A DNA stretch of 64,000 bases, taken from positions 186,001-250,000 of the forward strand of contig JAVHLM010000008.1 in the NCBI GenBank assembly GCA_031082125.1, written 5' to 3'. Below the pieces are notes generated by a model. The model was not told the DNA's origin. It saw only the letters and a list, made by a program, of their open reading frames with translations, and did no database searches. This document shows positions 52,562 through 64,000 of the stretch, piece by piece. This DNA comes from Candidatus Eremiobacterota bacterium. Its GTDB lineage: Bacteria > Vulcanimicrobiota > CADAWZ01 > Ess09-12. The stretch's first letter is position 1. Each line of letters begins with the position of its first letter. Both the position numbers and the translations under genes were made by a program.

Positions 52562-53824
52562 GTGCCATTGAAGCAGCAGGAAGTTCTCTGGGCGCTTCAG
52601 GCAGATCGCCAGGGGGAGATCTGCGAAAGCACTTCATTCCGCGCAGTAGGCCGCTCAGGCACCGTTGTGCGGGAGCCCCTCGCTGGTGAAGTATCACCCG
52701 CACCATACGGGACGCTCTTCTTTTTCCTCCCCGGAAGGTTTCCTCTCGGCATCTGCCAGGGAAAAACCGCCCCCCTCTCCACGAAAAAAGGTGCGGTGAC
52801 GGCAGTGAGCCTCATACCGCCGCCGGGCTATACAAGGACCCTTCTGCCCGCGTGGAACAAGTATTCCAAGGAAGCGCTCCCTTTCTATGCCTATTCAATG
52901 GGTGCCCTTCAAGAAGGGGAGTTCCGTATCGCCGCCATTGCCACCGAGAACTCCCACCGCTGGGATCCCACGCAGTACAACAGCCCCGACCTCAAGACAA
53001 AGATAAAGAAGAAACTGAAAGCATTCCCGCGCAACAGGCTCCTGTCCCACCTCTCCCACTGCGCCACTGAATACGGCTGTTACAATGCCCAGAATATCTT
53101 TTATGACCGGTGGGAGGGAGGGATTCCTGTCGCACCTTCCTGCAATGCCGACTGCGCAGGGTGCATCTCCAAGAAGAGGGCCAAGGCGCCGCCCTCGCCG
53201 CAGCAAAGGATAGCCTTTGTGCCCACCGCAGAGGAGATAACGGAGGTTGCCGTGGCGCACCTGAAGAACAGCCAGGCCATCGTGAGCTTCGGCCAGGGGT
53301 GCGAAGGCGAGCCCACGACTCAGGCGGGGCTCCTCATAAGGGCCATAACGCTCATAAGGGAGAGAACCTCAAGGGGAACCATCAATATCAATACCAATGG
53401 CTCCAAGCCCGAGGCATTGCGGGAGATGGCGAAAGCAGGGCTTGACAGCATAAGGGTGAGCCTTAACTCGGCACTGGAGAGCCGCTACGAGAGCTTTTTC
53501 AGGCCTTCCGGCTTTTCGTTCGCCACCGTCAGGGAGACTCTTGCCATGGCGAGGGGCGAGGGGCTTTTCATTTCTCTCAACCTCTTCATCATGCCGGGAG
53601 TCACTGACAACGAAGAGGAGGTCGAAGCCCTCTTCAGGCTCCTCAGGGAGCATCCCCCCCACAAGATACAGCTCAGAAACCTGAATATGGACCCCGATCT
53701 CTACTTTTCCACCATGCCGGCGCCCCGGGGCAGGGCCCTCACCATACCGGGCATGCTTGAGCTCATCAGGAAGGAGTTCCCCACGCTCACGCTGGGAAAT
53801 TTCACTCCCTCTCTGAGAGAGTGA
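52562..53824 (+). CDS. Radical SAM protein with N-terminal extension
   Basis: The protein has 420 residues; GTG 52562 is just after the rho stop and probably translationally coupled, though its ribosome site is weak. The first ~175 residues are an extra domain of unknown role (PGYTRTLLPAWNKYSKEALPFY region). The radical SAM core follows: CNADCAGC (CxxxCxxC), FGQGCEGEP (SAM-binding GGE equivalent), INTNGSKPEALREMAKAGLDSIRVSLNS, and LFIMPGVTDNEEEVEALFRLL. Substrate unknown. Its end overlaps the convergent MBL gene by 23 bases. Confidence 0.85.
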   Translation: MPLKQQEVLWALQADRQGEICESTSFRAVGRSGTVVREPLAGEVSPAPYGTLFFFLPGRFPLGICQGKTAPLSTKKGAVTAVSLIPPPGYTRTLLPAWNKYSKEALPFYAYSMGALQEGEFRIAAIATENSHRWDPTQYNSPDLKTKIKKKLKAFPRNRLLSHLSHCATEYGCYNAQNIFYDRWEGGIPVAPSCNADCAGCISKKRAKAPPSPQQRIAFVPTAEEITEVAVAHLKNSQAIVSFGQGCEGEPTTQAGLLIRAITLIRERTSRGTININTNGSKPEALREMAKAGLDSIRVSLNSALESRYESFFRPSGFSFATVRETLAMARGEGLFISLNLFIMPGVTDNEEEVEALFRLLREHPPHKIQLRNLNMDPDLYFSTMPAPRGRALTIPGMLELIRKEFPTLTLGNFTPSLRE

Positions 53825-55952
53825 CAAAATGCTTTCTGCGGCGCTCATCCGCGATGATTGTCAGGTTATAGAACACCGAGGGGACCTCGGTAATTATCCT
53901 GGAAAAATATTCCCGTGATATGATCACTACTTCGGTGGGCTCCCTGGCCGTCACCGTGGCGCTCCGTATCTTGCTCTCCGAAAGGAGGGCCATCTCTCCG
54001 AAAATATCGTCCTTCTCCAGTGTCCCCACGAGGATCTCCCTGTCGTGGCCTTTTTTCGTGACCGTGCACGATCCGCGCAGGATAAGGTATAGATGATCAC
54101 CGATATCGCCTTCCCTTATGATCACCTCTCCTTTGTCAAAGAAACGCTGTCTGCTGTGGATGATAATCTCCTGGAGAAAGTTGTCGGGAGTATCGTTAAA
54201 GACCGTGGTATGGAAAAAATTCGGCCTCACCTGCATGATCCTGAGAAGGCTCCTCTTCACGTTCTCATCCTGGATGAAGCATCGGAAGACCTCCTGGGGG
54301 ATGGCCAGGATCTTCACGCATGACTCGGAGATAATCGTGGCCGTCCTCTTGTGTGAGCCCAGAAAAATCATCTCGCCAAAATAGTCGCCTGAATAAATCC
54401 TCGCGACAAACTCCCCTGCCCGGATCACCTTGAGAGTGCCCTGGAGAAGGAAATAGAAGCACTCATCGCCGGTCGACTCGTCAATTATCACCTCGTGGGC
54501 TTTTCTCTCTATCACCTTTCCCTCGCTGCAGAACACCCTGAGCCAGTCATGGGGCGCTCCCCTCATCAGCGTTGACTCCGAGAGGGCCAGCACATCTTCA
54601 AAGTCCAGTTGCTCACGGGTTGCCTCCAGCGAAAAAATCTGCCCCGCCATCCCGAGGTTGACCCGGGAGCACAGAGCAGGCGGCAGCTCCGCCACGTGGG
54701 TGAGATACATCCTGCGGCGCACCTCGTCGGGAAGCTCAGCGAGCTCTTCAGGCTCAGGGTGGATTGGCCCGCCGCCGCCGTCGAAGAGAATGAGCTCCAG
54801 GCCTTCCCTGAAGGGCAGATTCATCAGAAAATCCCGGTACGACGGCTCAATGATCCCCTTCTCCACAAGGCCGTCAAGAGGCCTGCCCCAGAGCGTGTCA
54901 CCCGAGATAAGAATCTTGCCGTTGATGATGACACCGATGGTGGGGATGGGATGAATGGTGTAGAAACAGGAGATCGTGTTGGAGTACCAGCTGTTTTTCT
55001 CGCCGGGACGGAGCTCGATAAAGTGAACGAGCTTCTCCACATCTTCCATGGGGATGCTCAGAATGCTCGAGGCCTTGACGAGAAAAGAGCGATAGATCAG
55101 ATTTGTCGTCGCAATGCTCGAGCGGTAGCCGTTAATCATCATGTTGAAGATATTGGAGTGATCGTCATGGAGGTGGGTGACCACGAAAAGGCCGATTGAG
55201 CCGGGGTTGATGCCGTAAAGGTTGAGGCGCTCCCCCATCCATGGGGAGCCGTCAATGGAGATGCCCAGGTGCTTCGCGTAGATAATCACATTGGAGGTGT
55301 CGCCCCTGGGATCAAAGCCCGTTGAAGTGCCCAGCACGACGGCACCAAGCTTCATGGGCTTGATGAGCTCCACGGGAGCCTGATAAAGAGTGGGAGGAGA
55401 GATGACATGGGTGTGGGCGATGTCCACCTCGAGGGTTTCACTGCCTGAGGAGACACAGAAGCGATCTGCGCCGGTCCTTTTTATCCTGAGCCCTTCAATC
55501 TCCACTGAGCCGTCAGGCCCGAAGGGTACAAAGCTCACGATCTCGCCGAGCCTGGTAAAATCCTGCCTGAAATAGGAGCGCACCTTCCTGACAAAATCAG
55601 CCTCGCCGCAGGTGCTCCAGGTGAGGGCCTGCTCATCTGTCGGGCCCAGCACGGTCTGCTGCAGAATCGCCGATATCTGGCCGACCTGGCGCGCCATGCC
55701 GACTATGGTGAACTTTTCGCCGCGCTCCTTCGGGCCCTGGCTGAAAATATACTTGTAGAGAGGGAACTCGACGGACTGGGTCATCCCCCTCTCATAGAGC
55801 CTGTCGGGAAGCACGATGATATGGCCGAACTGCTTTTTCTGGAGGGCAAAGTACTTGACCACGTCAGCAGGAACGCCAAATACCACGACTCTTTCACCAA
55901 AAGTGACTACCTTGCATCCGGGAACGACCTCTTCTATCGATAAATGCTGCAT
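53802..55952 (-). CDS. Metallo-beta-lactamase-fold protein with two C-terminal cyclic-nucleotide-binding domains
   Basis: The protein has 716 residues. N-terminal ~170 residues are an unknown domain. The MBL core at ~185-470 has HLHDDH (HxHxDH), a further His in YTIHPIPT, Asp in ISGDTLWG and His in YLTHVAELP, so the two-metal site looks complete. Two CNB domains follow: ~490-590 (FYFLLQGTLKVIRAGEFVARIYSGDYFGEM) and ~605-710 (LYLILRGSCTVTKKGHD, DDIFGEMALLSESKIRSATVTA). The second has the FGEMALL-xxxxRSATV phosphate-binding cassette, consistent with cAMP or cGMP binding. A cyclic-nucleotide-gated hydrolase is inferred. No signal peptide. Confidence 0.85.
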   Translation of the reverse strand: MQHLSIEEVVPGCKVVTFGERVVVFGVPADVVKYFALQKKQFGHIIVLPDRLYERGMTQSVEFPLYKYIFSQGPKERGEKFTIVGMARQVGQISAILQQTVLGPTDEQALTWSTCGEADFVRKVRSYFRQDFTRLGEIVSFVPFGPDGSVEIEGLRIKRTGADRFCVSSGSETLEVDIAHTHVISPPTLYQAPVELIKPMKLGAVVLGTSTGFDPRGDTSNVIIYAKHLGISIDGSPWMGERLNLYGINPGSIGLFVVTHLHDDHSNIFNMMINGYRSSIATTNLIYRSFLVKASSILSIPMEDVEKLVHFIELRPGEKNSWYSNTISCFYTIHPIPTIGVIINGKILISGDTLWGRPLDGLVEKGIIEPSYRDFLMNLPFREGLELILFDGGGGPIHPEPEELAELPDEVRRRMYLTHVAELPPALCSRVNLGMAGQIFSLEATREQLDFEDVLALSESTLMRGAPHDWLRVFCSEGKVIERKAHEVIIDESTGDECFYFLLQGTLKVIRAGEFVARIYSGDYFGEMIFLGSHKRTATIISESCVKILAIPQEVFRCFIQDENVKRSLLRIMQVRPNFFHTTVFNDTPDNFLQEIIIHSRQRFFDKGEVIIREGDIGDHLYLILRGSCTVTKKGHDREILVGTLEKDDIFGEMALLSESKIRSATVTAREPTEVVIISREYFSRIITEVPSVFYNLTIIADERRRKHFVTLSERE

Positions 55953-57388: not shown

Positions 57389-58810
57389 TCAGAACTTGGG
57401 CATCTCACGCTGCGCTTCATGGAGGGGTTTCTGCATGAAGGTGAGGTAATTGAGGCTTCCGAGCCTCTTCCTCAGGACAAGGAACGTCACCGCCACACCG
57501 ATGACGGCGGCGGCAAGATACCCTGTGCCGAGCGGGACTGTATGGGCGGCATAAGAGGGCACAAGGACGATATTGAACACGAGGTTGGCAAGGAAAAAGA
57601 CCATGATGCAGACAAAAGACTCTTTGAGGAGCTCAAGATACCAGAGGAGCACCACCAGGGCCAGGAGCATGACCTGGAAAAAAGCCCCTATGAGAAGCAG
57701 GATGTAAGTCTTGAGGAGCACCTCCCTGAGATACCCGATGGATTCGAGAAAATTCGGGGCAATAAGGACCATGATGAGCGTGACGAGAAACTGAACCTTG
57801 AATACATCGGAAAGCTCGGTCCTGAGCACATTCATCATCTGCCTCCTCTGGCGCTCTATATCGATCAAGGTCCCCTTGTTGAGGATTACCTGGATGTAAT
57901 GGCGGAGCCCCGCGTAAAAATTCGTCTCCACATGGAGAAAGAAAATGGAGAGTGCGGGAATGATGGTGAGGGTCGCGAGAAATGCCGCCGAGTCGTAGGG
58001 ATACTGCCCCCGGAAGAAGGGCTCACTGTTACTGGGGATATTAAAGCCGAGGCGGGAGTACCAGATGATGATCTTGTCCACCCAGAATCCCAGGTTATAG
58101 AAGAATGCCGCCCACACGAGAGTGGGATAGTTTTTGAAATAGAGGGTGAACTCGAAAATACCGTTTTTCCCGAAGGGGAACTCACTGACAATGCGCTCCA
58201 CAAGCAGGAGCAGCACGGCCATCTGGCCTATCGTGAAACCAAGAAGGTACCCGGTGACTTTCAGCGATGCCCCCAGAAGGACCGCCAGCACGAAGCTCAT
58301 GACAAAGCCGGCCAGAAAAATGACCGTTATCCTCACGAAATCCCTCACCGTGCCCAGGAAGGCCATCACGATCCACTGGTAGCCCACGGTGCAGAAAAGC
58401 ACCACCGAGAGGACCTTCAGGCCGAATTCCATCGGGAGGAAGGCCACATAGGACCACGAGACAAAGAAGTTCACCACGCCGCAGAGGAGCATCACTCCCG
58501 CAAAATTCGGCAGAAGGGAGCCGTACTCTCTCTGAAAAAGCTTGTCTGATATGAAACGGGTGATGGTAAGCTGAAAGAGGCTTGTGGTGACGAGGGAAAA
58601 GGCAAAGACATAGACCACGATGGCTCTGAAAAAAAGGATGTCCCTGGAGGACATATCACGGGAAGCAATGAGGTTGAGTGCCGCAATGCAAATGACTGCA
58701 AAAATCCAGGGGCCTGAAGAGAGCATGAGGGCGTACAGGTTCGCCTTGAAATCGCTGGTGTAGCGGTCCTCCTTCAGAAGGTTCTTAAGCTGGAATCCTA
58801 TGCCGGCCAT
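57389..58810 (-). CDS. pelG: PelG, membrane flippase-like component of Pel exopolysaccharide export
   Basis: The protein has 473 residues and about 12 hydrophobic helices. It begins MAGIGFQLKNLLKEDRYTSD, the conserved PelG opening, followed by alternating helices through the sequence (LMLSSGPWIFAVICIAALNL; GVMLLCGVVNFFVSW). It belongs to the MOP-type superfamily and, with PelF, PelD and PelE, forms the inner-membrane synthase/transport complex for a galactosamine-type polymer. It starts 29 bases after the pelF stop. Last gene of the visible pel operon. Confidence 0.92.
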   Translation of the reverse strand: MAGIGFQLKNLLKEDRYTSDFKANLYALMLSSGPWIFAVICIAALNLIASRDMSSRDILFFRAIVVYVFAFSLVTTSLFQLTITRFISDKLFQREYGSLLPNFAGVMLLCGVVNFFVSWSYVAFLPMEFGLKVLSVVLFCTVGYQWIVMAFLGTVRDFVRITVIFLAGFVMSFVLAVLLGASLKVTGYLLGFTIGQMAVLLLLVERIVSEFPFGKNGIFEFTLYFKNYPTLVWAAFFYNLGFWVDKIIIWYSRLGFNIPSNSEPFFRGQYPYDSAAFLATLTIIPALSIFFLHVETNFYAGLRHYIQVILNKGTLIDIERQRRQMMNVLRTELSDVFKVQFLVTLIMVLIAPNFLESIGYLREVLLKTYILLLIGAFFQVMLLALVVLLWYLELLKESFVCIMVFFLANLVFNIVLVPSYAAHTVPLGTGYLAAAVIGVAVTFLVLRKRLGSLNYLTFMQKPLHEAQREMPKF

Positions 58811-58839
58811 AGCGTGTCTTTCCGCCCTTTACGGGCTTC

Positions 58840-61248
58840 TCAGGTAATATCGGAACGTTTTTTCCAGGGCGCCATGGAAATGAGAGAGTCAAACTGCGCC
58901 CCGTAAAGCTTGTACACGTCGCGGCGCTCATAGAAGCGCCTTATCCTCTCCTTGCCCGCCGCGCCCATCTTCCTGCCGAGCTGCGGATCCCTGACAATCT
59001 TCAAAATCTGCAGGGCCGTGTCATAGGGGGAATGAACGCCCGTGATGGCGCCTGCATGGCCTATTTTCCTGTCCTCGTCGTTTCTGCCATAAAGCAGCTC
59101 CCGCGAAGCACCCACGTTTGTCGCCACACATGGAATGCCCGAGGCCATGGCCTCCATGAGGGAGAGGGGCTGCCCCTCGCTTATGCTGGTGAGGACCATC
59201 ACATCGACGTTCCTGAGATGCTCCCGAAGGTCCACGTTCCCCGTAAAGCTGAAGACCTCGCCCAGGCCCAGCATCTCCACAAGGGCGAAGCACTCATCGG
59301 CGTACTCCTTTTCTTCGTCATAGGGACCCATGATCTTGAATTTCACAAGGGAGCCCAGCTCCTCGCGGACAATCCTGCAGGCCCTGATAAAGGTCTTGAT
59401 ATCCTTGATGGCCACGACCCTCCCCACGAGGGCCACAGTGGAATATTCCTCCCTGTCCTGGCCGTCCTTAACGGCGCTGAATACCTGGGACTCAATTCCA
59501 TTGGGAATTATGGAGATCTTCATGGGATTGGCCCCCGCCTCCATCTGCATAAGCCTGTTGTCGCCGTAAAGGGTGGTGATCCTGTCGGCAAAGCGGTAGG
59601 CGATGCTGCTCATGGTATAATACATGTCTATCCACACCTTCTTCAGGCCTGTGGAGATGTCACGGGCGATATAGCCGTCCTCTTCCCTCTCGTATATCCA
59701 CCCCGACCTGTTTATCTCCAGCATCCGCTCCCTGTGATAGATTCCATGCTCGGTAAGCATCATGGGCCGCCCGAACTCGATCTTCGCAAGGACGCATGCC
59801 AAGCCCGCGTAGCCCGTGAGGGCGCTGTAAAAGAGGCGTGCGGGGGGAAGGGCTGATCTCGCCAGGTTAAAAAGGGGCAGGATAATTGAGCGGTATGACC
59901 AGCTGAATTCAAGAAAGGGGAGATCGGGAGTGTACTTGTCATAGAGCATGACGAGGAATTCCCAGGCCTCATGGGAAAACAAGAGCTCCTGGAGGCCCAC
60001 GTCAAGGTGGTGGGGAATTCCAAGCCCCTTTATCAGTTTTTCAAAGCCCTGGATATCAGCCTGCCTGACGGTGGAGAGAAACTCATAAATCAAGGTGAGC
60101 TTCTCCTTCAGCTCCTTTGATGCAAGGCTCCTTCCACGGCGCTCAGGCACCTCGTAAAGATAGATTTCATTGAAATAACGGACATTCGGTGGGAATGCGT
60201 ATCGAAACTCCCTTATCTCTGAGCTTGCCGTCGATATATGAACCACCGAAAAGGAGCGGTCGTGGAAGGAGGTCATCAAATCGTGGACCCAGGAGGAGAC
60301 GCCGCCGGCCACATAGGGATAGCTCCCCTCGACGACAAGGCAGATGTCAGCCTCCTCCCTCTTTTTCTCCTTGAAGAGAAAGGAGAAATACCAATCTGAG
60401 ATGCATTTGATATTTTCCCCGTCGCCAGGTTCACAGACAGGCTCCCCCTGGAGACTCGCCAGCAGCTCCAGAAGCCCCTTCTTGTAAAGGACCCTGAAGA
60501 GCTCGTTCCTCACATTAATGTTCCTCTCATGCCTCATCGCGCTGGTGAAGCTCTCTATGCAGTGCGTTCCGGGGATCTGCCCCATGGCCCAGATTGCGGC
60601 GAGCCTCACCCTGTCGTTCACGTCATCCGCAAGGCTTATCAGGCGGGAGCAGGATTGAGGAAGCTTCCGGCTCCCGCAGTAGAAGGCTGCGGCATACCTC
60701 ACATTGGGCTCCCTGTGGGCGAGGCAGGCCAGGACCGGCTCGTCAGAGCGGGGATCGCCAATGAGCCGAAGGGCATCGATGGCATTGAAGACTGTGTCGC
60801 TGTGCTCCGCCTCCAGCTTCTCGATGAGGGGGATGACGGCACAGACCTGTTCCCCCTTTCCCATCGCCTCGATGGCATAGAGGGAGACTGCCGGGTTTGA
60901 GGCGTCAATGAGGGGGAGGAGGCATTCATACTTATAATCAGACTCTATTCCCGCCAGGGCATTCCGGGCCTCGCTCACTATCAGGTCATTTTCGTCAAAA
61001 AGGAAGAGCACCATGTCCCTTATGGCCGATTCATATTCGAAGCCCGCCAGATGACGCAGCACCAGGTAGCGCATTTTGAAATTGCCCTTCAAGGCGCGCT
61101 CTGCAAGAAGATGGAGCTCTTCTTCTCCGGTAAGCGTCGCGAGGAGACCCTCTTCTTCCATCGATGCCGTGGGATCGAGGACATCAATGGAGCTGAGGAC
61201 CTTGTCAATCCTCTCCTCCCTATTTTCCTGCACTGCCTTAGCTGCCAT
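58840..61248 (-). CDS. pelF: PelF glycosyltransferase with N-terminal HEAT-repeat domain
   Basis: The protein has 802 residues; typical PelF is about 500. ATG 61248 is preferred (GGAAGGAAGG just upstream); it overlaps the pelE-like stop by 11 bases, and the frame is open to 61326. Residues ~1-290 are HEAT-type helical repeats (MRYLVLRHLAGFEYESAIRD, AVSLYAIEAMGKGEQVCAVI, VRLAAIWAMGQIPG). PelF follows: DICLVVEGSYPYVAGGVSSW, then the GT4 end (VALVGRVVAIKDIKTFIRA, SISEGQPLSLMEAMASGIPCVA). PelF is the cytosolic polymerising glycosyltransferase using UDP-sugar. The HEAT part is an addition probably for docking to its membrane partners. Confidence 0.93.
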   Translation of the reverse strand: MAAKAVQENREERIDKVLSSIDVLDPTASMEEEGLLATLTGEEELHLLAERALKGNFKMRYLVLRHLAGFEYESAIRDMVLFLFDENDLIVSEARNALAGIESDYKYECLLPLIDASNPAVSLYAIEAMGKGEQVCAVIPLIEKLEAEHSDTVFNAIDALRLIGDPRSDEPVLACLAHREPNVRYAAAFYCGSRKLPQSCSRLISLADDVNDRVRLAAIWAMGQIPGTHCIESFTSAMRHERNINVRNELFRVLYKKGLLELLASLQGEPVCEPGDGENIKCISDWYFSFLFKEKKREEADICLVVEGSYPYVAGGVSSWVHDLMTSFHDRSFSVVHISTASSEIREFRYAFPPNVRYFNEIYLYEVPERRGRSLASKELKEKLTLIYEFLSTVRQADIQGFEKLIKGLGIPHHLDVGLQELLFSHEAWEFLVMLYDKYTPDLPFLEFSWSYRSIILPLFNLARSALPPARLFYSALTGYAGLACVLAKIEFGRPMMLTEHGIYHRERMLEINRSGWIYEREEDGYIARDISTGLKKVWIDMYYTMSSIAYRFADRITTLYGDNRLMQMEAGANPMKISIIPNGIESQVFSAVKDGQDREEYSTVALVGRVVAIKDIKTFIRACRIVREELGSLVKFKIMGPYDEEKEYADECFALVEMLGLGEVFSFTGNVDLREHLRNVDVMVLTSISEGQPLSLMEAMASGIPCVATNVGASRELLYGRNDEDRKIGHAGAITGVHSPYDTALQILKIVRDPQLGRKMGAAGKERIRRFYERRDVYKLYGAQFDSLISMAPWKKRSDIT

Positions 61249-62284
61249 GACCTTCCTTCCAGCTTGCGATGAACTCCTCCATATCGGGCTTATCATCACC
61301 CTTATAACCGGCAATATGGGCTTCAATCGTCTTTACCGAATCATTGAGAGAGAGGAAATCCCTCTTCTCCCAGAAGCACTCTGCGAGGACCGTGAGGGCC
61401 GCAATATCTCCGGGCTTCAAAACAATTGCCTTCCTGAGGTGGGGAACTGCGTCGTCTATATCGCCTCTGAAGAGGAGAAGCCTCCCCATCATGAAGTGGG
61501 CTTCATACTGTTCATCCTTGAGCTCAATGGAGCGCCCGAGCGCCTCGGCGGCCCTTTCAAGCTCGGAGCGCTTCATGGCACCTTCAAAGAGGCCTGAAAG
61601 GGCGTGGCGCAGGTGAAGACTCCCCAGTTCCGCAAAAACGCGGGCGTCACGGGGGTTCCGGGATGCCTCGCTCTTCATCTCGCCTATGATGATGCTGTAG
61701 AATTCTGCGATCTTGGCAATCTCCTCGCCGGCAAAATACCGGACATCCATGTGGGGATCGTCTATGAGAGACTTGAGGGACCTTACGGTCTCGGGGCCGG
61801 AAATCTTCCCGAGGCTCTTGATGATATTGAGCTTTGTCCTTGGATCTGCATCCACGAGCGTCGTGGAAAGGGGCTCAAGCTCATAGCCTTCCTTAAGGTA
61901 CGAGAGCGCTTTCCTCACCTTCTTGCGGTGCACCGGATCCCTTGTCATCCCCGCTTCCACGTGGCGGCGGTACTCGATGAAAAGGCCGGAGACCTCGCTG
62001 GAGCCCCCGTAGAGCATCTGTATGAGCGCCACATAGCCTGCCAGCGGAACGGTAAAGAGAAAAACAAAGGCAAAGAGGGCAAGGCGCCTTTTTTCAGGGC
62101 TGTGAAAGAAGGTTGCTATCGCGGCGCAGAGAGCTGCCGCACCGTGGGCCAGAATCACCGGCGGTGCTGAACCGGCGGCACCGTGTTCATAACATGCCAT
62201 GAACAGAAAGAGGGCCGAGCTCTCGGCACCTATGCTCAGGAGCAGAAATAGTCCATGCATTGGAGACAGATGTTTCAAGGGCAT
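61238..62284 (-). CDS. pelE: PelE-like membrane protein with repeat domain
   Basis: The protein has 348 residues. Two N-terminal membrane helices (FLLLSIGAESSALFLFMACY, LALFAFVFLFTVPLAGYVALIQM) with a third hydrophobic stretch between, then a cytoplasmic part with HEAT-like (LNIIKSLGKISGPETVRSLKSL) and TPR-like helices (ERAAEALGRSIELKDEQYEA, LFRGDIDDAVPHLRKAIVLKP). Position between pelD and pelF and the membrane-plus-TPR layout match PelE. The symbol rests on position as well as layout. Twelve bases separate it from pelD; its stop overlaps pelF. Confidence 0.8.
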   Translation of the reverse strand: MPLKHLSPMHGLFLLLSIGAESSALFLFMACYEHGAAGSAPPVILAHGAAALCAAIATFFHSPEKRRLALFAFVFLFTVPLAGYVALIQMLYGGSSEVSGLFIEYRRHVEAGMTRDPVHRKKVRKALSYLKEGYELEPLSTTLVDADPRTKLNIIKSLGKISGPETVRSLKSLIDDPHMDVRYFAGEEIAKIAEFYSIIIGEMKSEASRNPRDARVFAELGSLHLRHALSGLFEGAMKRSELERAAEALGRSIELKDEQYEAHFMMGRLLLFRGDIDDAVPHLRKAIVLKPGDIAALTVLAECFWEKRDFLSLNDSVKTIEAHIAGYKGDDKPDMEEFIASWKEGHGS

Positions 62285-62296
62285 ATCTCCCGGATT

Positions 62297-63700
62297 TTAC
62301 AGAAAGGGAATAAGGGCCTTCTGGGAAGTCTCACCCTTAAGGCTTTCGAGGACCGCCTCAGGCGAGTCCATAGCCGCTATCTCACTCAGAAAGCGGAGCT
62401 CAAGCGCGAGACTTCTCTCGTCTTCATAAGGCTTCAGGCCGAAGGACTTGATTTCCACGCTCATTGCTTTCAGGAGGTCGAAGAACTCCTCCTCGGGGAT
62501 CTGCACCATCATAAGGCAAAACTGTTGCTCTTCTTCAAAATAGGAGAGAATATCAAATTCCCTCATGGTCTGCATAAGAACCCTGGCAAGAAACTTGAGC
62601 GTTGGCTTCCTGTGCTTCTCCAGAACCTTGTCCCAGTCAAGTATGCCTAAAGTGGCGACGGTACAGGTGATGTTTGACCTGCGGGACTGAAGGATGGCCT
62701 CCTCAAGCCTGAGCATGAAATAATGGGGACGGAAAACGCCGAGATCGGGGTCCACAATTCTCCGCCCCTCGCTTGTCTTGTAGGAAAGAGCATTTTCTAT
62801 GGCCCTTGCGGCCCAGTTGGCCACGAGGGAGAAGCTTTTCTTTGTGACGCCGGTGAAGCGGAGCATGCTGAGAGAATCAATTGTGATGACTCCTAAGACA
62901 GTCTCGTTGCTTCTCTTGAGAGGGGCGGTATAGATGGGCGTCCTGGAGAGGATGGCCTCCCTGAGCTGATCGTCCCTTATGCTCACAAGCTTCCCCCGCT
63001 CGCATGCCATCTGGTAGGGCGCCTGGGAGACCTCAATGGTTTCAGGGGGCTTCTCCTCGAAATCCATGTAACCAAGGGCATGCTTCAGGCGGAGCGTCGT
63101 GCCTTCGAGGAGGTAAATCCTGCATTTCTGCACCTCGAGATACTTCCTGAGCACCTCCAGTATCTCCCTGTAAAGGACATCCATGTCCAGGTTCTGCATC
63201 TTTTCCGCATCCATATAGATATCGGAAAGGGTCGTGGCGCGGGTGAGTATTTTTTTCTCGTAGTTCTCCTTTAAAAAGGATATGATCTGGAACTGCTCGT
63301 TGAGCTCCTGGTATCTGCCGCGGCTTTCCTCCATCTCGAGCTCCTGCTCCCGCTGCCTCTGGGCAAAGCGGTCATGGATATGGCCGAATATGAGGATCAT
63401 CAGAAAGAATACCGCTACGACGGGCAGATGAGAGAAGACCTCGGCGGGCTTCACCGGGGGAGTGAGAATATAAAAGAGGGAGCACAGGGCGGCGCTGTAG
63501 TTTCCCCAGGCCGTGCCGTAGCGGACCGCCGAGAGCAGGACTATCAGCAGATAGGGGTTTATGAAGTAAGCCTGCAGAAGATGATAGCCTGGATCGGCGG
63601 GCAGAAGCGTGATATTGAGCCCGAATGCAAGAAGCGAGATTATGGTAATCTCTTTAAAGACCGGGCTTCTGAGAGCATTGAGCAATCTTTCTGATGCCAC
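62297..63700 (-). CDS. pelD: PelD-like c-di-GMP receptor (membrane, GAF, degenerate GGDEF)
   Basis: The protein has 467 residues. Four hydrophobic segments in the first ~110 residues (TIISLLAFGLNITLLP; PYLLIVLLSAVRYGTAWG; SAALCSLFYILTP; LPVVAVFFLMILIFGHI), a coiled coil (~115-150), a GAF domain (~155-310) and a GGDEF-like domain. In the last, TMREFDILSYFEEEQQFCLMM aligns with RxxD-xxxxx-GGDEF: the RxxD inhibitory c-di-GMP site is kept (REFD) but GGDEF is EEEQQ. So it should bind c-di-GMP without making it, as PelD does. Arginine support residues could not be placed. Followed closely by pelE. Confidence 0.85.
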   Translation of the reverse strand: MASERLLNALRSPVFKEITIISLLAFGLNITLLPADPGYHLLQAYFINPYLLIVLLSAVRYGTAWGNYSAALCSLFYILTPPVKPAEVFSHLPVVAVFFLMILIFGHIHDRFAQRQREQELEMEESRGRYQELNEQFQIISFLKENYEKKILTRATTLSDIYMDAEKMQNLDMDVLYREILEVLRKYLEVQKCRIYLLEGTTLRLKHALGYMDFEEKPPETIEVSQAPYQMACERGKLVSIRDDQLREAILSRTPIYTAPLKRSNETVLGVITIDSLSMLRFTGVTKKSFSLVANWAARAIENALSYKTSEGRRIVDPDLGVFRPHYFMLRLEEAILQSRRSNITCTVATLGILDWDKVLEKHRKPTLKFLARVLMQTMREFDILSYFEEEQQFCLMMVQIPEEEFFDLLKAMSVEIKSFGLKPYEDERSLALELRFLSEIAAMDSPEAVLESLKGETSQKALIPFL

Positions 63701-63706
63701 TCTGAC

Positions 63707-64000
63707 TTAAAGATTCCTTTCCTTTGGTTTTTCCACGATATCGATGGCTTTGAGGAGCTTGGCGCGGTCAAAGGGCTTCACAAGGTAATGATCGGCGCCG
63801 TAGTCATAACTGGTGAGTACCGAGTCTGAATCCGAGAGGGCCGTGAGCATAATCACCGGGATGTCCTTCGTCTTCGGGTTGTTCTTGATCATGAGGGTCG
63901 CCTGGATACCGTCCAGCACCGGCATCATGATATCCATAAGCACAATTTCCGGCATCTTTTCAACAGCGGCCTTCACGGCCTCTTCTCCATCGGTGGCCTC
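63707..64000 (-). CDS. Response-regulator receiver domain (cut by window edge)
   Basis: Partial at the right edge: the frame is open to base 64000 (GTG 63976 is internal). Visible residues: EATDGEEA, then PEIVLMDIMMPVLDGIQATLMI with the phosphorylated Asp, VIMLTALSD (the Thr switch) and YLVKPFDRAKL (conserved Lys-Pro). The receiver ends the protein a few residues later, so it is either a stand-alone receiver or the C-terminal domain of a hybrid kinase. Only six bases separate its stop from the pelD start, indicating one operon and so phospho-control of Pel production. Confidence 0.85.
   Translation of the reverse strand, partial: EATDGEEAVKAAVEKMPEIVLMDIMMPVLDGIQATLMIKNNPKTKDIPVIMLTALSDSDSVLTSYDYGADHYLVKPFDRAKLLKAIDIVEKPKERNL

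Follow-up and report, generated by a model that had tools for sequence, protein, structure and literature searches.

A Pel synthase locus with HEAT repeats fused to PelF and a receiver gene before pelD: a proposed Pel subtype

The locus described here concerns Pel, a biofilm polymer of wide occurrence, and bears on how its soluble polymerase, PelF, is attached to the exporter and how it is activated. In P. aeruginosa and B. cereus, PelD serves as the receptor for c-di-GMP and thereby activates PelF (PMC7112168, PMC13254593). Two papers describe PelD, PelE, PelF and PelG of P. aeruginosa as interacting, with PelF as the cytosolic polymerase and PelG as the exporter, and present PelE as a predicted interaction hub (PMC13254593, PMC12345266). 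In the 64,000-nucleotide stretch of DNA analyzed here (the window), PelF begins with a long run of HEAT repeats and a response regulator receiver (REC) is encoded ahead of pelD. One would wonder whether the HEAT part truly belongs to PelF, whether it is linked to the receiver and what the two could bring to a Pel synthase.

Reading of the open frames between 57389 and 64000, together with profile matches, gave the transcription order REC, pelD, pelE, pelF and pelG on the minus strand, exactly as an earlier note on this DNA had proposed. The single-domain REC (63707..64000, Pfam Response_reg, 74 bits) runs 90 bp past the end of the window, to an ATG at G000:C8:250090, and the complete gene (L002) encodes the acidic pair, the phospho-acceptor Asp, the Thr and the Lys. 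Six bp further on, pelD (62297..63700) encodes a DUF4118-like membrane part, a GAF domain (GAF_3, 50 bits) and a degenerate GGDEF domain. The latter was assigned by motif and position, as a Pfam search at E 0.1 gave no match to a PelD GGDEF model; its RxxD motif, at residues 380-383 (REFD), aligns across PelD homologues. After 12 bp comes pelE (61238..62284, 348 aa), with membrane helices at its N-terminus, then a short HEAT stretch and then TPRs, and its end overlaps the start of pelF (58840..61248) by 11 bp. The polytopic exporter PelG (57389..58810, 473 aa) is encoded 29 bp downstream of pelF and matches the Pfam PelG model PF16933 over positions 1-452 of 452 with 376 bits. In the neighborhood, a gene 120 bp before REC (L002:7212-8981, G000:C8) carries both carboxyltransferase halves, accD and accA, in one 589-aa frame; in another genome of the phylum, G013, accD and accA are separate genes, likewise on the pel contig (L037:13651-15530). 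Also on the minus strand, 53802-55952 encodes a protein of 716 aa that combines two cNMP-binding domains with, in its N-terminal half, an HxHxDH-like motif of the metallo-beta-lactamase type, and a similar metallo-beta-lactamase-like frame is found on contig C18 (L036:3-1280).

The locus presents the features expected of a Pel synthase: a PelF with an EX7E motif (residues 691-699) and a 413-bit match to the NCBIfam PelF model NF038011, the PelG exporter, a PelD with RxxD, a PelE with TPRs and the order pelD-E-F-G. Judging from its sequence, nothing of the inner-membrane Pel synthase is lacking here, as PelD, PelE, PelF and PelG are all encoded, and the assignment to a Pel-type system made in the earlier note is upheld.

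The central question is whether the HEAT repeats belong to PelF. The start of pelF is the ATG at 61248, preceded by the ribosome site GGAAGG, so that PelF counts 802 residues; the TTG at 61326 was merely the first start given by the ORF tool and was discarded in favor of this ATG. HEAT_2 of Pfam matches within the first ~250 residues (E 1.2e-18), and the match to NF038011, for which the cut-off is 100 bits, begins at residue ~300. The extension is therefore of about 298 residues (60355..61248), close to the ~290 first announced, and the glycosyltransferase domain of the GT4 type occupies residues 299-802 (58843..60354; DUF3492, 239 bits, and Glycos_transf_1, 84 bits, both Pfam). An AlphaFold2 model built from a two-sequence alignment shows helical hairpins over residues 1-264, with pLDDT mostly between 50 and 86, followed by a linker; with such an alignment the glycosyltransferase part of the model is unreliable. 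The HEAT module matches alphaRep/HEAT structures both by model (Foldseek) and by sequence.

Two genes could have been merged by a frameshift, a misassembly or a mis-called start, and it is true that the ORF tool had picked a wrong start. We nevertheless consider such an artefact extremely improbable. After residue 238 of PelF, no ATG occurs before the glycosyltransferase domain begins, a GTG at residue 246 falls within the HEAT part, and GC3 is unbroken across the junction. Furthermore, the independent assembly of G013, from the same phylum and another family, displays pelD, pelE, HEAT-pelF and pelG in the identical order with the same fusion; the two PelF proteins share 46% identity over their whole length and 39% in the HEAT part, and residues 250-304 of the G013 protein contain no ATG, GTG or TTG. 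The fusion in G013 rules out an assembly artefact, and the junction, which offers no usable start in either genome, rules out a pair of genes or an internal start. The HEAT-PelF fusion is thus confirmed as real, in one in-frame gene.

How common is this architecture? Our survey took in each of the 149 available genomes of the phylum and another 239 spread over the domain; six more phyla were either sampled or covered in full. Among these ~1,260 distinct genomes, and with the thresholds used, HEAT repeats on PelF were found in two of the ~146 that bear PelF, namely that of the window and G013. The 137 loci examined base by base revealed no other HEAT extension at the N-terminus of PelF, and none of 27 PelF-bearing plasmid records (from Azospirillum, Cupriavidus, Caballeronia and others) encodes a HEAT-PelF. 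When peptides of the HEAT part were sought in 84,980 genomes, G013 was the sole find; as the two patterns of 8 residues used for this are strict, the absence elsewhere is weak evidence. Extended open frames around PelF in G228, G468 and other genomes were considered as further HEAT fusions and rejected: that of G228 is a tail at the C-terminus, the others being read-through. The G228 tail (L051 / L222) is of ~180 residues, acidic, rich in Gln and Glu, and non-HEAT.

The literature searched contained no link between PelF or pel operons and HEAT repeats, a search in which subscription papers mostly fell outside, so that an earlier report is possible. A query combining PelF, PelD and "receiver domain" returned one paper, a genome description. 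The view that the fusion is foreign to the described Pel systems is in agreement with this search and with the survey, in which such fusions proved rare.

The repeats of PelE call for a different judgment. In Pfam, the protein matches TPR models and, over a short stretch, HEAT_2 (31.8 bits), and its AlphaFold2 model, again from a two-sequence alignment, consists of helices, with pLDDT of 70-92 in the TPR part. The HEAT/TPR helices which the earlier note had attributed to PelE are hence present; that they make this PelE special does not hold. Indeed, PelE proteins from many phyla, in loci where PelF is plain, follow the same plan of membrane helices, short HEAT stretch and TPR, and HEAT was found in at most 17 of the 38 true PelE rows of our alignment A4, from which two rows that are separate HEAT proteins (L099, L042) were left out. 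Since the same HEAT-then-TPR PelE occurs in ordinary Pel loci, it is a general feature of PelE, and an unusual richness of this PelE in repeats is ruled out.

A HEAT protein encoded at the same site came to light in two other phyla, where a gene of HEAT-protein length lies directly before pelF in 17 of the 17 PelF loci found (L176, L177, L181, L182 and L184-L196). The phylum of G278 accounts for 16 of 16, and G177, from a third phylum, shows the same. These genes mostly encode 635-670 aa, with one of 535 aa ended by a contig edge, and pelE directly precedes them in all loci except two whose contigs are too short to show it. HEAT_2 was found in each of the eight separate proteins scanned (E 8e-8 to 5e-44). 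The fused module aligns start to start and in register with their N-terminal ~290 residues (hhalign probability 99, E 4.5e-18).

The receiver gene follows a similar distribution. A single-domain REC stands directly before pelD in 13 of the 14 HEAT loci with enough upstream DNA (the window and 12 others), versus none of 34 non-HEAT loci (Fisher p 7e-11, a value that ignores the kinship of the sequences). REC and HEAT therefore travel together. In the fourteenth, the separate-HEAT locus L195, the REC site before pelD is occupied by a REC-like frame that has decayed. In several separate-HEAT loci, PelD has lost parts of RxxD.

The separate HEAT genes and the REC before pelD lead us to propose a Pel subtype with the order REC-PelD-PelE-HEAT-PelF-PelG, in which HEAT is a gene of its own in other phyla and is fused to PelF here. 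The window displays both features of this subtype, as HEAT lies between PelE and the glycosyltransferase domain of PelF and REC directly precedes pelD. We found no description of such a REC/HEAT subtype in the literature searched. The earlier reading had missed both the separate HEAT gene between pelE and pelF and the membership of REC in the subtype.

Orthology between the fused HEAT module and its separate counterparts is a more delicate matter. HEAT proteins are common, and HEAT could have been recruited beside PelF twice, independently, the fused module and the separate gene being then unrelated. In favor of this, the fused module (~298 residues) has half the length of the separate proteins (mostly 635-670), and in BLAST the Pel-locus proteins do not stand apart, most of them being equaled or surpassed by certain non-Pel HEAT proteins as matches to the fused module. 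When the HEAT part of G013 was compared with 241 genomes of the G278 phylum, the Pel-locus protein of G278 itself came second and most other Pel-locus proteins were not distinct. BLAST is thus non-decisive and was set aside as a proof of orthology. We nonetheless regard two recruitments as rather unlikely, in view of the same site beside pelF, the in-register N-terminal alignment and the same REC neighbor. Because HEAT repeats look alike, the argument for orthology rests mainly on position; orthology of the two modules is possible, position being the stronger argument and sequence alone falling short of proof.

Trees of PelF and of PelF with PelG bring a further element. They place the two fused proteins together with full support and group nearly all separate-HEAT loci of one phylum, with no firm backbone and no firm grouping of the two fused proteins with the separate-HEAT ones. 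A tree that keeps all HEAT loci in a single clade is not rejected by the AU test (p 0.61) and has a log-likelihood higher by 5.5, which also speaks against two recruitments, and one origin of the HEAT-bearing Pel loci is possible from these sequences.

What could be the role of the HEAT module? Its presence as a separate protein in some phyla and as a fusion in another is natural evidence for its working partner, and the fusion points to PelF as this direct partner. The helical scaffold suggested in the earlier note is a plausible role. The best explanation, which we hold with a little more confidence than doubt, is a Pel synthase subtype in which HEAT docks PelF on PelD and PelE and REC acts via HEAT. 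In such a synthase, c-di-GMP would bind PelD, whose RxxD is kept, and PelD and PelE would form a membrane platform. The HEAT solenoid would most likely dock the soluble polymerase PelF on this platform, in line with PelG, the exporter of the chain, which we presume to be Pel. A second on/off input, beside c-di-GMP, probably comes from phosphorylated REC by way of the HEAT part, and HEAT may carry the phosphorylation signal from REC. The REC partner is what points to this second input.

A more precise and more tentative version, possible though in our opinion doubtful, is that HEAT and REC constitute a phosphorylation-controlled switch, phospho-REC binding HEAT and thereby setting the docking or the activity of PelF, so that a two-component signal would be joined to that of c-di-GMP. 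If this were true, HEAT would be an eighth, unnamed Pel subunit. On the other hand, HEAT could be a passive tether or an oligomerization part, with REC acting elsewhere, on transcription or on PelD, and their link reflecting shared ancestry. Joint inheritance of HEAT and REC in one clade would indeed produce an association without contact, and REC adjoins pelD, not the HEAT gene. However, the association extends over three phyla whose sequences have diverged widely, a setting in which genes of no use should have been lost, and we therefore judge the passive role somewhat improbable. The decayed REC of L195, where HEAT is kept, fits either view.

The nature of the polymer itself deserves discussion. 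The absence of the outer components PelA, PelB and PelC from the window, already noticed before, extends beyond base 64000: pelA, pelB and pelC were found neither from the operon to the end of the contig, 21 kb upstream, nor within 5 kb downstream. The sole GH114 protein found in the genome (L036:8159-10486, G000:C18) is a distant, lipoprotein-like protein of 775 aa with two GH114 domains and no linked pel gene. Both observations would suit a synthase making a polymer other than Pel, exported without PelA, PelB or PelC. We find such a product unlikely, since PelF matches an NCBIfam equivalog at four times its cut-off and Gram-positive Pel loci also do without pelB and pelC (PMC7112168). A Pel product, which would be a GalNAc-rich and partly deacetylated polymer, is thus retained as the preferred reading.

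Some outer components may be found in related loci. A TPR protein encoded upstream of REC in several separate-HEAT loci is a candidate PelB. In the phylum of G338, PelA lies between pelE and pelF (L212:3548-5809, also L213-L216). The L212 gene matches a solved PelA structure (PDB 9cgy), an arrangement that echoes the order of B. cereus; the two intervening genes of this phylum that were scanned gave no Pfam match.

Several parallels can be drawn with known Pel systems. With pelABCDEFG of P. aeruginosa, the locus shares the PelD-E-F-G order, the GT4 polymerase, the exporter, the c-di-GMP motif of PelD and the TPRs of PelE; it differs by the HEAT module on PelF, by the REC before pelD and by the lack of pelA, pelB and pelC in the locus. 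The pelDEA_DAFG operon of B. cereus has in common with the HEAT subtype a pelDEFG core without pelB and pelC and an extra gene between pelE and pelF (PMC7112168, PMC13254593), but this gene encodes a deacetylase, whereas the HEAT subtype has at this site a solenoid of HEAT repeats, cytosolic and, in the window, joined to PelF. The Streptococcus loci in which pelD carries extra domains likewise illustrate how the control of a Pel system can be altered or supplemented (PMC12345266); there, PelD bears a degenerate SDR domain and four additional genes are present, while in the window the change consists of HEAT and REC. A further likeness is with the Pel loci of the G278 and G177 phyla, which show the same order REC, PelD, PelE, HEAT, PelF and PelG, except that HEAT is there a separate protein, mostly of 635-670 aa, and that several of these loci have a TPR (PelB-like) gene upstream of REC.
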